Below are positions 11,386 to 58,500 of a DNA stretch of 64,000 nucleotides, piece by piece. Positions within the stretch are counted from its first letter, which is position 1. Every line of letters starts with the position of its first letter. The notes under the pieces are model-generated. The model had not been told where the DNA came from and made no database searches. It saw only the letters and a program-made list of their open reading frames with translations. This DNA comes from Tenacibaculum todarodis. GTDB taxonomy: Bacteria > Bacteroidota > Bacteroidia > Flavobacteriales > Flavobacteriaceae. Position numbers and translations under genes: made by a program. Location of the stretch: contig NZ_CP018155.1 of the NCBI RefSeq assembly GCF_001889045.1, positions 2,110,001-2,174,000 of the forward strand, read 5' to 3'.

Positions 11386-11393
11386 CAAAGTTA
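11386..11393 (-). promoter_or_regulatory. Putative -7 box for the djlA-like gene
   Basis: On the minus strand it reads TAACTTTG (TAnnTTTG), 20 bp before the start at 11365. It overlaps the edge of a perfect tandem repeat. Confidence 0.5.
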
Positions 11394-11421
11394 CAAAGTA
11401 AAAAAGTTACAAAGTAAAAAA
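11390..11421. repeat. Perfect tandem duplication of a 16-bp unit
   Basis: GTTACAAAGTAAAAAA occurs twice head to tail (11390-11405 and 11406-11421), just upstream of the djlA-like gene. Confidence 0.9.
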
Positions 11422-53090: not shown

Positions 53091-53420
53091 ATGATAAAAG
53101 TTTCAGACACAGCAAAAAAGAAAGTCATAGAGTTAATGACTGACGATGGTTTTGACGCATCAAAAGACTTTGTAAGAGTTGGTGTAAAAAGTGGCGGTTG
53201 TTCAGGTTTATCGTATGATTTAACGTTTGATAAAACACAACAAGAAAACGACAAACTTTTTGAGGAAAATGATGTAAAAATTGTTGTTGACAAAAAGAGC
53301 TTTTTATATTTAGTAGGAACAACCTTAGAATATTCTGGAGGTTTAAACGGAAAAGGTTTTGTATTTAACAACCCAAACGCAAATAGAACTTGTGGTTGTG
53401 GAGAAAGTTTTTCTTTGTAG
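53091..53420 (+). CDS. sufA: A-type Fe-S carrier (SufA/IscA family)
   Basis: 109 residues from the ATG at 53091 (MIKVSDTAKKK). An ATG 18 codons upstream (53037) lies before the promoter box and is rejected. Three conserved cysteines: C37 in SGGCSGL, C101 and C103 in TCGCGESF. It carries or inserts Fe-S clusters. First gene of the suf run; sufB follows after a foreign-looking small gene. Confidence 0.93.
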   Translation: MIKVSDTAKKKVIELMTDDGFDASKDFVRVGVKSGGCSGLSYDLTFDKTQQENDKLFEENDVKIVVDKKSFLYLVGTTLEYSGGLNGKGFVFNNPNANRTCGCGESFSL

Positions 53421-53438
53421 AAAAGTTCAAAATTTAAG

Positions 53439-53455
53439 GTTTAAAATTTAAAGTT
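53439..53455. repeat. Left terminal inverted repeat of the four-helix-bundle unit
   Basis: GTTTAAAATTTAAAGTT ends exactly at the base before the ATG at 53456. The reverse complement with one mismatch is at 53856-53872. The adjoining sequence repeats the same AT-rich motif. Confidence 0.75.
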
Positions 53456-53848
53456 ATGGCAACCGTTAAAATGTTTGAAGATTTAGAAATTTGGAAACTT
53501 TCTAGAATTCTTTGTAACGACATTAATCAAGTTGCAAATAATACTGAATTAAGAAAAGATTACAGATTGTATAATCAAATTGATGGTTCTTCGGGTTCTG
53601 TTATGGATAATATTGCTGAAGGATTTGAAAGAAACGGAAATAAAGAATTTATTCAGTTTTTATCAATAGCAAAGGCGTCTTGTGGAGAAACAAGATCTCA
53701 ATTATATAGAGTTTTTGATAGAAATTATATAAATGAAAAAGATTTTAATAAGCTAAAAGAACAATCATTAGTTTTAAGTAAAATGATTGGTGGATTTATA
53801 AATTATTTAAAGAAAAGTGAATTTAAAGGAAGTAAGTATAAAAGTTAA
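53456..53848 (+). CDS. Four-helix-bundle protein (23S rRNA intervening-sequence type)
   Basis: 130 residues. The family features are [11 protein letters not shown] at the N-terminus, [41 protein letters not shown], and a helical C-terminus. Homologues were first seen as ORFs inside 23S rRNA insertions and are scattered in Bacteroidota genomes; molecular role uncertain. It interrupts the suf operon between sufA and sufB and is bounded by 17-bp inverted repeats, as expected for an inserted unit. No transposase is present. Confidence 0.9.
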
Positions 53849-53855
53849 TACGCAC

Positions 53856-53872
53856 AACTTTGAATTTTAAAC
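53856..53872. repeat. Right terminal inverted repeat of the four-helix-bundle unit
   Basis: AACTTTGAATTTTAAAC, matching the left repeat in inverse orientation at 16 of 17 bases. A second AACTTTGAATT follows just before sufB. Confidence 0.75.
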
Positions 53873-53887
53873 AATGAACTTTGAATT

Positions 53888-55333
53888 ATGAAGTATACAG
53901 AAGAAGATTTAGAACAAGAATTAAAAACCAAAGAATATGAGTATGGTTTTTATACAGATATAGAGAGTGAAACCTTTGCAAAAGGGCTAAATGAAGATGT
54001 AGTTCGTGCTATTTCTAAAAAGAAAAACGAACCACAATGGATGACCGATTGGCGTTTAGAAGCATTTAGAGTTTGGGAACAAATGGAAGAGCCAGAGTGG
54101 GCAAATGTAAATTATGAAAAACCAAAATTTCAAGACATTGCTTATTATTCTGCTCCAAAACAAAAGCCAAAGTTAAATTCTTTAGACGAAGTTGATCCAG
54201 ATTTATTAGAAACGTTTAAAAAATTAGGAATCTCTATTGATGAACAAAAGAAACTTGCCAATGTTGCGGTTGATATTGTTGTAGATTCAGTTTCTGTTGC
54301 AACAACTTTCAAGAAAACATTAGGTGAAAAAGGTATTATTTTCATGCCTATTTCTGAAGCAATACAAGAACACCCAGAATTGGTTAGAAAATATTTAGGA
54401 ACCGTTGTACCAACTACAGACAACTTTTATGCAGCATTAAATTCGGCAGTTTTTTCTGATGGATCTTTCTGTTACATTCCAAAAGGAGTAAGATGTCCGA
54501 TGGAATTATCTACTTATTTTAGAATTAATGAAGGAGGAACAGGTCAGTTTGAAAGAACACTTGTTGTTGCAGACGAAGGAAGTTACGTTTCTTATTTAGA
54601 AGGTTGTACTGCGCCGAGTAGAGATGAAAATCAATTACACGCAGCTGTTGTAGAATTAATTGCAATGGATGATGCAGAAATTAAATATTCTACCGTACAA
54701 AACTGGTATCCTGGTGATGCAGAAGGTAAAGGTGGAGTTTTCAACTTTGTAACTAAAAGGGGTTTATGTGAAACAAACGCAAAAATTTCTTGGACGCAAG
54801 TAGAAACAGGTTCGGCTGTTACTTGGAAATATCCTTCTTGTATCTTAAAAGGAAATAACTCGGTTGGCGAATTTTATTCGATTGCAGTAACTAATCATTT
54901 TCAGCAAGCCGATACAGGAACAAAAATGATTCATTTAGGAAAAAACACTAAATCGACCATTATTTCTAAAGGGATTTCGGCAGGAAAATCACAAAACTCA
55001 TACAGAGGTTTAGTTCAGATAAATTCAAGAGCAGAAAATGCACGTAATTTTTCGCAATGCGATTCTCTTTTAATGGGGAATGAATGTGGAGCACACACGT
55101 TTCCGTATATAGAAGCAAAAAACAAATCGGCACAAATAGAACACGAAGCAACTACAAGTAAAATTGGTGAAGACCAACTTTTCTATTGCAACCAACGTGG
55201 AATTGATACCGAAAAAGCAATCGCATTAATCGTAAACGGATTTAGTAAAGAGGTTTTAAATAAATTGCCAATGGAATTTGCTGTAGAAGCTCAAAAATTA
55301 TTGGAAATTAGTTTAGAAGGTTCTGTAGGGTAG
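53888..55333 (+). CDS. sufB: Fe-S cluster scaffold subunit SufB
   Basis: 481 residues, normal SufB length. Beta-helix scaffold of the SufBCD complex. Recognisable parts are [74 protein letters not shown] and the C-terminal [21 protein letters not shown] with conserved Glu and Cys. It assembles clusters with SufC and SufD; SufS would supply sulfur. Confidence 0.97.
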
Positions 55334-55341
55334 CTAAAATT

Positions 55342-55417
55342 GTCATTCCTGCGAAGGCAGAAATCTCATAATAGAAAGATAAATTAATAATAAGATTCCT
55401 GCTTTCGCAGGAATGAC
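55342..55417. repeat. Paired GTCATTCC palindromic repeat, copy 2 (inside suf operon)
   Basis: Arms 55342-55365 and 55394-55417 are reverse complements with two mismatches and a 28-bp spacer, the same arm and spacer lengths as copy 1. It overlaps the ATG at 55413 that opens the following frame. Confidence 0.93.
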
Positions 55418-56288: not shown

Positions 56289-57038
56289 ATGTTAAAAATC
56301 AACAATTTACACGCCTCAATAGAAGATAAATCAATCTTAAAAGGATTGAATATAGAGGTAAAAGCTGGTGAAGTTCACGCAATAATGGGACCAAATGGTG
56401 CTGGTAAAAGTACCTTAGCAAATATTATAGCAGGAAAAGAAGATTACGAAGTTACCAACGGAACTATCGAGTTAAATGGTGAAGATATTAGCGAATTAGC
56501 ACCAGAAGAAAGAGCGCATAACGGTGTATTTTTATCGTTTCAATATCCTGTAGAAATTCCTGGAGTTTCTGTAACAAACTTTATTAAAACAGCTATTAAC
56601 GAAACTCGTAAAGCTAAAGGTTTAGAAGACATGCCAGCAAAAGACATGTTAAAAATGATTCGTGAGAAATCTGAATTATTAGAAATAGACCGTAAATTCT
56701 TATCTCGTTCTTTAAACGAAGGTTTTTCTGGAGGTGAAAAGAAACGTAACGAAATTTTTCAAATGGCAATGTTAGAGCCAAAATTAGCTATTTTGGATGA
56801 AACTGATTCAGGTTTAGATATTGATGCTTTACGTATTGTTGCAAATGGTGTAAATAAATTAAAATCTAAAGACAATGCAGTAGTTGTAATTACACACTAT
56901 CAACGTTTATTAGATTATATCGTTCCAGATTTTGTACACGTTTTACACGATGGAAAAATAGTAAAAACTGGAGATGCTTCTTTGGCTTTAGAATTAGAAG
57001 CAAAAGGATACGATTGGATTAAGAAGGAATTGGTGTAA
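56289..57038 (+). CDS. sufC: Fe-S assembly ATPase SufC
   Basis: 249 residues, ABC-type ATPase. Walker A GPNGAGKST (about 36-44), signature LNEGFSGGEKKRNE, Walker B LAILDETDSGLD, and switch His in VVITHYQRL. Energises the SufBCD scaffold. A 148-bp repeat-like gap separates it from sufD. Confidence 0.97.
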   Translation: MLKINNLHASIEDKSILKGLNIEVKAGEVHAIMGPNGAGKSTLANIIAGKEDYEVTNGTIELNGEDISELAPEERAHNGVFLSFQYPVEIPGVSVTNFIKTAINETRKAKGLEDMPAKDMLKMIREKSELLEIDRKFLSRSLNEGFSGGEKKRNEIFQMAMLEPKLAILDETDSGLDIDALRIVANGVNKLKSKDNAVVVITHYQRLLDYIVPDFVHVLHDGKIVKTGDASLALELEAKGYDWIKKELV

Positions 57039-57047
57039 ATAAGTAAG

Positions 57048-57183
57048 CAGTTTGCAGTTGACAGTTTGCAGTGACTCACTCTAAACTGAAAACTCAAATT
57101 TTAAAATATTCTGTCTTTTTTGAAGTGTTTTTAACACATAAAGTTAAATACTGCTAACTGAAGACTGAGTACTGAAAACTGAA
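57048..57183. repeat. CAGTTTGCAG-type repeats between sufC and sufD
   Basis: CAGTTTGCAG occurs at 57048-57057 and 57062-57071 (14-bp period). The other end (57150-57183) carries inverse CTGAAAACTG-type repeats. The 148-bp gap holds no gene. It looks like a short, gene-less element or its remains. Confidence 0.6.
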
Positions 57184-57186
57184 AAA

Positions 57187-58500
57187 ATGGAATTAAAAGA
57201 TAAAATAGTATCGTCTTATGTAGCTTTTGAAAATGATGTAGACATCAATTCAGAAATACATAATATACGTACAAAGGCATTACAAAATTTTGAAGAATTA
57301 GGATTTCCTACTAAGAAATTAGAAGCATGGAAATACACTTCTTTAAATTCAGTTTTAAAGAACGATTATAGCATTTTTCCTAACAAGGAAAACACGATTG
57401 AATTTGCTGATGTAAAGAAATATTTTATACACGATATTGACACGTATAAAATTATTTTTATTGATGGAAAATATAGCTCTTTCCTTTCTGATGTAACGCA
57501 CGATGGGAAAGATATTTGCCTACTATCTTCTGCTTTATCAAAAGCAAAATACAGTCCTGTAATTGAAAACTACTTCAATAAAATTGCAAAACAAGACAAT
57601 TTAACATCGTTAAATACAGCATTTGCAAACGAAGGTGCTTACATCTATATTCCTAAAAATGTAGAGGTAGAAAAGCCGATTCAAATCATCAATTTTACAA
57701 CAGGTTCTGAAGCTGCAACTATGACTCAGCCAAGAAATTTAATTGTTGTTGAAGAAAACGCTCATGTTCAAATTATTGAAAGAAATCAAAGTTTAACAGA
57801 CAATGCAGTTTTATCAAATATTGTAACGGAAGTTTTTGCAGCTAAAAATTCTACGGTAGATATTTATAAAATTCAAAACGACAATATAAATGCTTCTTTA
57901 GTAGATAATACTTACATAGAGCAAAAAACAAATAGTGTAGTTTCTGTACATACTTTCTCTTTTGGAGGAAATATTACTCGTAATAATTTAAATTTCTATC
58001 AGCGTGGAGAACACATGGACTCTATCTTAAAAGGGATTACAATTATTGAAGGGAAACAACACGTAGATCACCACACTTTGGTACATCATATTGAACCAAA
58101 TTGCGAATCTCATCAAGATTATAAAGGAATTTTTGACGAGCGTTCTACAGGTGTTTTTAACGGTAAAGTAATTGTAAATAAAGAAGCTCAGAAAACAAAC
58201 GCTTATCAACAAAACAACAATGTGTTGATTAGTGATAAAGCTACAATTAACGCAAAACCGCAATTAGAAATTTTTGCTGATGATGTAAAATGTTCTCACG
58301 GTTGTACAATTGGTCAACTAGATGATGATGCTTTATTTTACATGCAACAACGTGGTATTCCGAAGAAAGAAGGAAAAGCATTGTTAATGTATGCTTTTGC
58401 AAATACTGTTTTAGAAAGTGTAAAAATACCAGAAGTTAAACAACGTATTAATAAGTTAATAGCAACAAAATTAGGTGTTGATATTGGCTTTGATTTATAA
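57187..58500 (+). CDS. sufD: Fe-S cluster assembly protein SufD
   Basis: 437 residues, beta-helix paralogue of SufB. Typical KLEAWKYTSL near the N-terminus, ANEGAYIYIPKNVEVEKPI, and C-terminal HGCTIGQLDDDALFYMQQRGI with FADDVKCSHG before it. Forms the SufBC2D complex. Last suf gene here; a terminator and a palindromic repeat follow where sufS is often found. Confidence 0.96.
   Translation: MELKDKIVSSYVAFENDVDINSEIHNIRTKALQNFEELGFPTKKLEAWKYTSLNSVLKNDYSIFPNKENTIEFADVKKYFIHDIDTYKIIFIDGKYSSFLSDVTHDGKDICLLSSALSKAKYSPVIENYFNKIAKQDNLTSLNTAFANEGAYIYIPKNVEVEKPIQIINFTTGSEAATMTQPRNLIVVEENAHVQIIERNQSLTDNAVLSNIVTEVFAAKNSTVDIYKIQNDNINASLVDNTYIEQKTNSVVSVHTFSFGGNITRNNLNFYQRGEHMDSILKGITIIEGKQHVDHHTLVHHIEPNCESHQDYKGIFDERSTGVFNGKVIVNKEAQKTNAYQQNNNVLISDKATINAKPQLEIFADDVKCSHGCTIGQLDDDALFYMQQRGIPKKEGKALLMYAFANTVLESVKIPEVKQRINKLIATKLGVDIGFDL

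Follow-up and report, generated by a model that had tools for sequence, protein, structure and literature searches.

A four-helix-bundle gene fills the sufA-sufB junction together with its repeats

We analysed a 64,000-nt stretch of the Tenacibaculum todarodis genome (contig NZ_CP018155.1, positions 2,110,001 to 2,174,000; hereafter the window). Profile matches identify, on its plus strand, a sufA-like gene (53091–53420; PF01521, 9e-18; TIGR00049, 8.5e-34), sufB (53888–55333; NF008773, 6e-275; TIGR01980, 1.2e-192), sufC (56289–57038; TIGR01978, 1.7e-112) and sufD (57187–58500; TIGR01981, 5.1e-86), in agreement with the Fe-S operon named in a preliminary description of the locus. Between the first two lies a gene for a 130-amino-acid IVP/S23 protein (53456–53848, plus strand; PF05635, 5.3e-33; TIGR02436, 4.3e-31). 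Its product scores 113.9 bits against PF05635 (curated cut-off 33.8) and 107.4 bits against TIGR02436 (cut-off 24), above both cut-offs, in line with the four-helix-bundle assignment made earlier. PF05635 is the only Pfam match at E ≤ 0.001, with no match to HuH/Y1 single-strand transposases, and to our knowledge no catalytic site is known for this family. No RT gene was found among the ORFs around the element. The relatives of the protein in the PDB are 2gsc (3.8e-6) and 2rld (0.0067), each entry containing five chains; the title of the 2gsc paper speaks of five four-helix bundles.

The preliminary description had placed this gene between 17-bp inverted repeats. These repeats are real (left, 53439–53455, GTTTAAAATTTAAAGTT; right, 53856–53872, AACTTTGAATTTTAAAC), they are complementary at 16 of 17 positions, and the ORF begins on the base after the left one and ends with 7 bases between its stop and the right one, but the structure is larger than first described. 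The full inverted repeat measures 33 nt at 82% (53426–53458 / 53853–53885). The 5' arm (53424–53458, plus strand; also found by TRF at 53422–53455) parses into five 7-nt units, AGTTCAA, AATTTAA, GGTTTAA, AATTTAA and AGTTATG, as does the 3' arm (53853–53887, minus strand), which reads AATTCAA, AGTTCAT, TGTTTAA, AATTCAA and AGTTGTG. The first base of the 5' arm lies 3 bases past the sufA stop, the arm overlaps the IVP start codon, and the last base of the 3' arm directly precedes the sufB ATG; arms and gene together fill the whole space between the sufA stop and the sufB start. The local inverted-repeat score is 21, compared with a maximum of 19 and a mean of 12 in 60 dinucleotide shuffles, and taken alone the inverted repeat is modestly beyond chance.

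Elsewhere in the operon, a metallo-beta-lactamase-fold gene (PF00753, 55413–56249) lies between sufB and sufC, with a palindrome (ATTCCTGCGAAGGCAG / CTGCTTTCGCAGGAAT, 55346–55413) ahead of it.

Paired arms flank IVP genes across phyla

The genome contains 10 PF05635 copies, all of which have arm-like flanks by eye, in differing letters; four (L002, L004, L005, L009) beat all 60 of their own shuffles and the other six do not. PF05635 is present in 49 of 58 genus genomes and was matched in 235 of 296 sampled Bacteroidota genomes, all of these being species representatives that are mutually related, so that counts across genomes are not independent. Within the genus, an inverted-repeat score of at least 16 was reached by 41/62 IVP genes, compared with 8/216 other ORFs (controls that often adjoin an element themselves), 26/372 combinations of swapped 5' and 3' arms and 9/248 shuffles. 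The rest of the phylum behaved alike (39/66 IVP genes versus 4/81 other ORFs, 17/396 swapped arms and 5/264 shuffles); 13 IVP ORFs with short flanks or no ATG were left out of the comparison, and start codons were assigned by rule. Because the IVP genes score high and swapped arms score low, the arms pair within a copy and not between copies. High scores are also common among 80 relatives of 2gsc drawn from genome contigs across many phyla, 3 loci of which were left out: 48/77 reached a score of at least 16, as opposed to 5/77 for the best of eight shuffles each. Arms are nonetheless weak, with scores below 16, in 21/62 genus, 27/66 other phylum and 29/77 many-phyla IVP genes, which counts against the explanation that we favour below.

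A single fixed terminal inverted repeat common to all copies is ruled out, since arm sequence differs between copies. The fixed 17-bp repeats of the preliminary description are thus replaced by arms of about five degenerate 7-nt units, and its expectation that the repeats recur around other copies is borne out for the architecture but not for the letters.

One of the own-genome copies, L008, has an in-frame stop; this decaying gene keeps its arm-like flanks.

Arms are runs of AG-anchored units that most often number five

Units have the degenerate form AGNNNNN on the 5' side and its complement on the 3' side. In the 70 nt upstream and downstream of IVP genes the match at lag 7 is 0.40–0.41, compared with 0.28–0.32 in shuffles, and lag 14 is also raised; an independent many-phyla set likewise gives 0.41 at lag 7. 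Runs of at least four units were found upstream as AG in 52/128 cases and downstream as CT in 51/128, versus 4 and 8 on the wrong strand. Of 106 elements, 80 are best described by a unit of 7 nt, 22 by one of 8, 3 by one of 6 and 1 by one of 9. The AG at fixed spacing is common to the elements, and the other letters of the unit are private to each lineage.

Unbroken runs of exactly five units occur at 22/128 genes upstream (AG) and 25/128 downstream (CT), as opposed to 0.1 in shuffles; runs of exactly four occur at 12 and 10, and runs of six at 6 and 7. Five remains the commonest number when each of 70 site groups, which were chained through flank similarity, contributes one element (five, 12.5 upstream and 13.3 downstream; four, 6.5 and 5.5; six, 2.9 and 3.8), and also among the 77 many-phyla genes (upstream: five 8, four 4, six 5; downstream: five 15, four 7, six 1). 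With five chains in the 2gsc and 2rld entries, this number suggests one unit per subunit.

Junctions occur in filled, empty and decayed forms

The elements have definable boundaries relative to the neighbouring genes: the median start of the repeat lies 1 base ahead of the point where the upstream stop codon ends, and its median end lies 5 bases short of the downstream ATG. We surveyed the sufA-sufB gap in 54 congeneric genomes with both genes on one stretch (62 rows, with some genomes represented twice). The gene is present in 16, a gap of 13–56 bp is found in 34, three gaps are decayed and one is of another kind. The decayed gaps (L067, L080 and L084), 106–153 bp long, match filled gaps in alignments (E = 2e-32, 8e-12 and 2e-17), and a 140-bp gap (L093) was assigned no kind. 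Comparison across relatives thus reveals empty-site alleles instead of a gene that is always there and, with similar boundaries at other copies, supports the earlier description of a compact, bounded cassette in the suf operon. Other IVP lineages found at this gap are only 39–48% identical to the suf-copy protein, and the junction has therefore been entered or exchanged more than once. Gain and loss are indistinguishable for the suf-site alleles. The site of another own-genome copy, L003, likewise occurs among relatives both as a short gap and in filled form. The L003 junction of many congeneric genomes (L181, L189, L191, L197, L199, L208 and others) holds a conserved intergenic stretch of about 110 nt (GAAGCTATTTCCTGCTTTCC ... 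AGGGCTAA) that is unrelated to heptads.

Elements also occur without a gene. On both strands of the window, five-AG runs at 7-nt spacing occur twice only, both times in the sufC-sufD gap. The AG-run scan and unit parse give a 5' arm (57042–57076, plus strand) of AGTAAGC, AGTTTGC, AGTTGAC, AGTTTGC and AGTGACT; the AG-run scan gives a 3' arm (57146–57180, minus strand) of AGTTTTC, AGTACTC, AGTCTTC, AGTTAGC and AGTATTT, each arm having all five AG. The inverted-repeat score of this gap was reached by 6/200 shuffles, and it is the one gene-less element found in our own-genome search, which covered the 64-kb window. Among 23 stretches, the sufC-sufD gap contains an IVP gene in 4 and none in 19; 12 of the 18 gene-less gaps scored (a 1272-nt gap, L220, was left out) have an inverted repeat reached by at most 10/200 shuffles, and several unrelated arm families are represented. 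Back at the sufA-sufB junction, the decayed gap L067 retains both arms and the final codons of the gene, a deletion product from which we conclude that gene-less elements arise via internal deletion.

Arms travel with the protein lineage

Close proteins share arms even at unrelated sites. For pairs at non-homologous sites, the mean arm-arm score rises with protein identity, from 8.0 at 35–45% (n = 2649) and 8.6 at 45–55% (n = 1559) to 10.1 at 55–65% (n = 189), 12.3 at 65–75% (n = 35) and 25.5 at 75–85% (n = 4). When mapped on a protein tree (a quick tree from few columns, with long-branch warnings, and with the lag-9 row L153 left out), unit length requires 9 changes, versus a mean of 23 in 2000 label shuffles, none of which fell below 17. 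The signal is weaker when each site group is represented by a single row (50 in all): 5–6 changes versus 7.7–10.4, with 1 to 75 of 2000 shuffles as low among the five draws listed of 10. One supported clade is filled by octads, another by hexads and a third by CG-anchored heptads. Because unit length and anchor track the protein tree, the repeat grammar is a property of the protein lineage; and because, in addition, closely related proteins keep similar arms wherever their genes are sited, we regard the arms and the gene as parts of a single element.

This coupling could also be read as that of a resident regulator, in which the arrays serve the protein itself as operator or translation-control sites and are copied along with the gene by ordinary duplication and horizontal transfer, with no dedicated mobility. 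The 5' array does abut or overlap the start codon, and the arms co-vary with the protein. Such a regulator leaves unexplained the inverted 3' arm, the dispersed gene-less copies, and the precise present and absent sites with intact adjacent genes, and we give this explanation only a slim chance.

Plasmid copies and insertion sites in Nostoc

IVP genes are found on 18 plasmid records, 4 from Riemerella and 14 from cyanobacteria. Ten of the 18 were examined closely and 7 of those reach a score of at least 16; the Riemerella plasmid copy, like the suf copy, lies downstream of a SufA-like gene. One Nostoc plasmid junction is filled in three records (L214, L239, L240), empty in five (L209, L241–L244) and occupied by another small gene in one (L245), and a neighbouring junction is filled in one and empty in eight. 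At the first of these the inserted DNA comes after the TA of the upstream gene's stop codon, with TTCTA on both sides in 2/3 filled alleles, and at the second ATG alone is common to both sides. The one clean pair of natural alleles, empty and filled, has no long target duplication, and the two sites have no clearly regular one. In the N6 plasmid, a 182-bp insert with heptads at its ends splits the IVP gene, and this nested insert has a duplication of at most 1 nt. We considered whether the 182-bp insert was an IVP-derived solo copy and rejected this: it is a separate repeat of about 180 bp, heptad-ended, high-copy in Nostocales and present in 35 plasmid records. It therefore supports the mobility of heptad-ended DNA and not descent from IVP elements. 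Examples of the repeat are L240 and L247–L252, and in Calothrix it lies between two annotated RarA-fusion reading frames.

The bounded units, the empty sites and this nested gene-less insertion are what might be expected of a cassette moved by a conventional transposase acting in trans on the inverted repeats, as the preliminary description proposed. MITEs and other DDE-mobilised transposons have fixed terminal inverted repeats, whereas the arms of IVP elements differ between copies and offer no fixed terminal sequence; and there is no clearly regular target duplication at the two Nostoc sites. Two copy-rich genomes of the genus, G017 (11 copies) and G020 (9), had no match to the RT family PF00078 or the Y1 transposase family PF01797, in a search that covered these two families. 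We therefore discarded an RT or a Y1 transposase as a required partner, found no support for the transposase originally suggested, and regard transposition of this kind as highly improbable.

Among cyanobacterial plasmids, three IVP genes lie inside CRISPR-Cas operons (L210, L213, L218), in the orders cas6-IVP-cas4 and cas10-IVP-cmr3 (Cmr3-family). At one of these, in Pseudanabaena (L213, cas6/cas4), the two heptad arrays are direct instead of inverted, an arrangement that counts against our favoured explanation.

Dispersed heptad arrays accompany the gene in Xanthomonadaceae

At five loci in Xanthomonas, Luteimonas and Dokdonella, an IVP gene lies between accB and accC (identified by NCBIfam match at 3/5 loci) with GGGAATC or GGGATTC arms; the Xanthomonas IVP loci with GGGAATC arms are L253–L255. 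The GGGAATC 17-mer GGGAATCGGGAATCGGG occurs 125, 49, 64, 97 and 16 times in the five genomes, overlapping matches inside one array being counted separately, and its backward pattern occurs 0 times. Plus/minus pairs of GGGAATCGGGAATCGGG 50–120 bp apart are present in the match list. These counts agree with the 186 GGGAATC arrays reported for X. campestris, which are intergenic, have a mean distance of 28 nt to the 5' neighbour, consist mostly of four units and include 70 convergent inverted pairs (PMC4692102). The same unit also brackets IVP genes in Xanthomonas, and the crystallised IVP XCC0516 (2gsc) comes from X. campestris itself; the sections of PMC4692102 available to us name no protein partner.

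Across the family, PF05635 is found in 52/119 genomes. The dispersed GGGAATC 17-mer occurs in 30/52 genomes with an IVP gene versus 8/67 without one (Fisher 1.2e-7), leaving 22 IVP-positive genomes that lack it, while the corresponding figures for GGGACTC (GGGACTCGGGACTCGGG) are 18/52 and 4/67, and GAGGAAC (GAGGAACGAGGAACGAG) occurs in 5 genomes, all IVP-positive. The backward control of GGGACTCGGGACTCGGG gave matches only in G384 (85), whose IVP arms read AGGGCTCAGGGCTCAG. Arms from 40 of the genomes reached a score of at least 16 in 36 (unshuffled). The arm motif GGGANTN was not significantly associated with the GGGAATC 17-mer in 20 + 20 genomes (11/20 versus 6/20, p = 0.20), a null result that we attribute to the use of several units by the arms, and a unit-by-unit test was then made. 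Arm unit and genome-wide unit were concordant in 19 cases where 11.5 were expected, a value matched in 1/5000 permutations; individual Fisher tests gave 0.003 for GGGAATC, 0.025 for GGGCTCA, 0.69 for GGGACTC and 0.15 for GAGGAAC. The tests are convincing only for the pooled permutation and for GGGAATC. Of nine genome-unit pairs with perfect arm-unit matches, eight have 8–279 dispersed matches and one, G388 with a GAGGAAC arm, has none. In this one family, the gene is linked to dispersed arrays.

Heptameric repeats have been described as over-represented in bacteria and discussed in terms of quadruplexes and slippage (PMC4692102, in the part available). By that account, polymerase slippage would produce heptad arrays anywhere and the gene would be a passenger, as the arrays without a gene and the eight IVP-negative genomes with GGGAATC arrays might suggest. 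Slippage does not lead one to expect a period and motif that track the IVP lineage, inverted pairs of arrays that bracket the gene as AG runs at one end and CT runs at the other, a unit number that peaks at five in both arms, or the tie between array presence and the gene, and we attach very little weight to it.

A possible RNA-level route and the rRNA intervening sequences

IVP elements mostly lie in the sense orientation within transcribed units, as judged from mechanically predicted ORFs: 57/62 copies in the genus lie between two near same-strand genes and 0 beside an opposite gene, and in the rest of the phylum 46/66 have same-strand neighbours and 5/66 have opposite ones on both sides. 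This bias may reflect selection against operon disruption. It is also what an RNA-level intervening sequence would display, in which the arms pair into a stem in the transcript, RNase III cleaves the resulting mRNA hairpin and spread occurs by reverse transcription or reverse splicing; on this account selection at the RNA level maintains the complementarity of the arms. The suf copy shares several features with the 23S rRNA intervening sequences (IVSs) that carry an S23p ORF in Leptospira and Coxiella, namely the protein family, a gene between inverted repeats, a length of about 430 nt and a sense position in a transcribed unit. The Coxiella rRNA IVS is an RNase III substrate (PMC4990558), and PF05635 has been reported to be similar to the DGR accessory protein Avd (PMC10053308), according to the portions of these papers at hand.

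Arm mismatches have no G.U-compatible bias (130 compatible and 156 not, p = 0.14), and within the genus the counts lean the other way (52 versus 75), so we rejected the idea that arm complementarity is maintained by pairing in RNA. RT (PF00078) is found in only 26/58 congeneric genomes and is absent from G017, G020 and G028 (13 copies). No RT, template or variable repeat of the DGR kind was apparent at the element. Because there is no G.U bias and no RT in copy-rich genomes, an RNA route is disfavoured, and we judge it unlikely, though less so than the other alternatives. The suf copy has complementary ends like an rRNA IVS, but sits between sufA and sufB and not in 16S or 23S rRNA, and in an Rfam scan of 14 other IVP loci without neighbouring ORFs none lay in rRNA.

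A probable REP/RAYT-like family with an unrelated protein

The architecture and population structure of these elements are those of a REP/RAYT-like system, and the protein is that of the rRNA IVSs. REP/REPIN sequences and RAYT (TnpA_REP), as described in the accessible parts of PMC3116915, PMC8266576 and PMC8049555, have in common with IVP elements a lone gene flanked by repeats, dispersed gene-less inverted pairs, a repeat type that matches the protein type, and intergenic positions beside gene ends; in Xanthomonadaceae the gene is indeed flanked by a repeat with further copies dispersed through its own genome. They differ in that RAYT is an HuH (Y1) nuclease whereas IVP is a four-helix bundle related to 2gsc, and in that a REP is a single palindrome whereas the repeats of IVP elements are arrays of 6–8-nt units.

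We consider it likely that the suf feature belongs to a small mobile element with many copies across bacteria, in which inverted arrays, each of about five 7-nt units, enclose an S23/IVP gene whose protein binds the array and spreads copies. Gene-plus-repeat, gene-less and empty relatives in many bacteria point to a little-noticed family of mobile DNA, best read as an IVS-like and REP/RAYT-like repeat family; we infer that its trans factor is the pentameric S23/IVP protein, acting through binding and movement of the arrays. IVP, a homopentamer in solved relatives, would bind the array, probably with one AG per subunit, five units to five subunits. As a trans factor it would spread both gene-bearing and gene-less arrays, perhaps via single-stranded or replication-linked DNA in the way that RAYT spreads REP hairpins. 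On the 5' array, beside its own start codon, IVP would also limit its own synthesis, and the 23S rRNA IVS would be such an element that landed in an rRNA gene. TRAP is a ring that binds spaced (G/U)AG triplets. The likeness to IVP, spaced AG units whose number would match a ring, may be an analogy only, as the proteins are unrelated, and no such comparison was found in open-licence PMC papers.

More tentatively, and with somewhat less than even confidence, we propose a class of mobile DNA that occurs throughout bacteria and works without a transposase. In it, a ring-shaped, non-enzymatic S23/IVP pentamer would read about five AG or lineage-specific units, one per subunit, at a clade-set spacing of 6, 7 or 8 nt, and would copy itself and gene-less arrays into operon junctions. 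Its products would include rRNA IVSs, the GGGAATC arrays of Xanthomonas, the heptad elements of Nostocales and perhaps the TAACTGA repeats and the trnL P6b repeats of Nostoc. In the parts of the following papers available to us, GGGGA(C/T)T arrays are described in Nostoc PCC 7120 (PMC4692102), and the origin is left open both for the TAACTGA heptamers of Beggiatoaceae, Cyanobacteria and Bacteroidetes (PMC4679880) and for the Nostoc trnL P6b repeats TDNGATT / NNTGAGT (PMC4476775). Those two sets resemble IVP arms as heptamer arrays adjoining a start codon or as repeatedly replaced heptad hairpins; neither 'four helix' nor 'S23' occurs in the available text of PMC4679880.

The closest precedent is PMC4990558, which, in the part available, reports tandem heptamers GACAGAT (AGATGAC in AG phase) directly before the S23p start codon at one rRNA IVS and calls the role of S23 in rRNA intervening sequences unclear; heptads, unit number and gene-less copies are not generalised there. 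We found no paper tying PF05635/S23 genes to dispersed heptad arrays among open-licence PMC papers and, as far as we searched, the wider link between gene and array is not in print. That link gives a very common uncharacterised protein family a testable job as a repeat-reading ring, and gives orphan heptameric repeats, previously put down to slippage (PMC4692102, in the sections available), a likely agent. It also provides a counterpart of REP/RAYT that is built on an unrelated protein and in which spacing changes with the protein clade, and makes the old question of IVS movement testable in harmless bacteria.

Two further observations were made in passing. The only Rfam match among the 14 loci scanned was a SAM_alpha riboswitch (L170:405–482; 37.6 bits, gathering threshold 36) near a Bacteroidota IVP gene, in an unexpected host. 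Within the window, positions 11386–11421 contain a tandem repeat with periods of 8 and 16 nt (CAAAGTTA / AAAGTTACAAAGTAAA) that resembles an octad arm, with no IVP gene noted near it.
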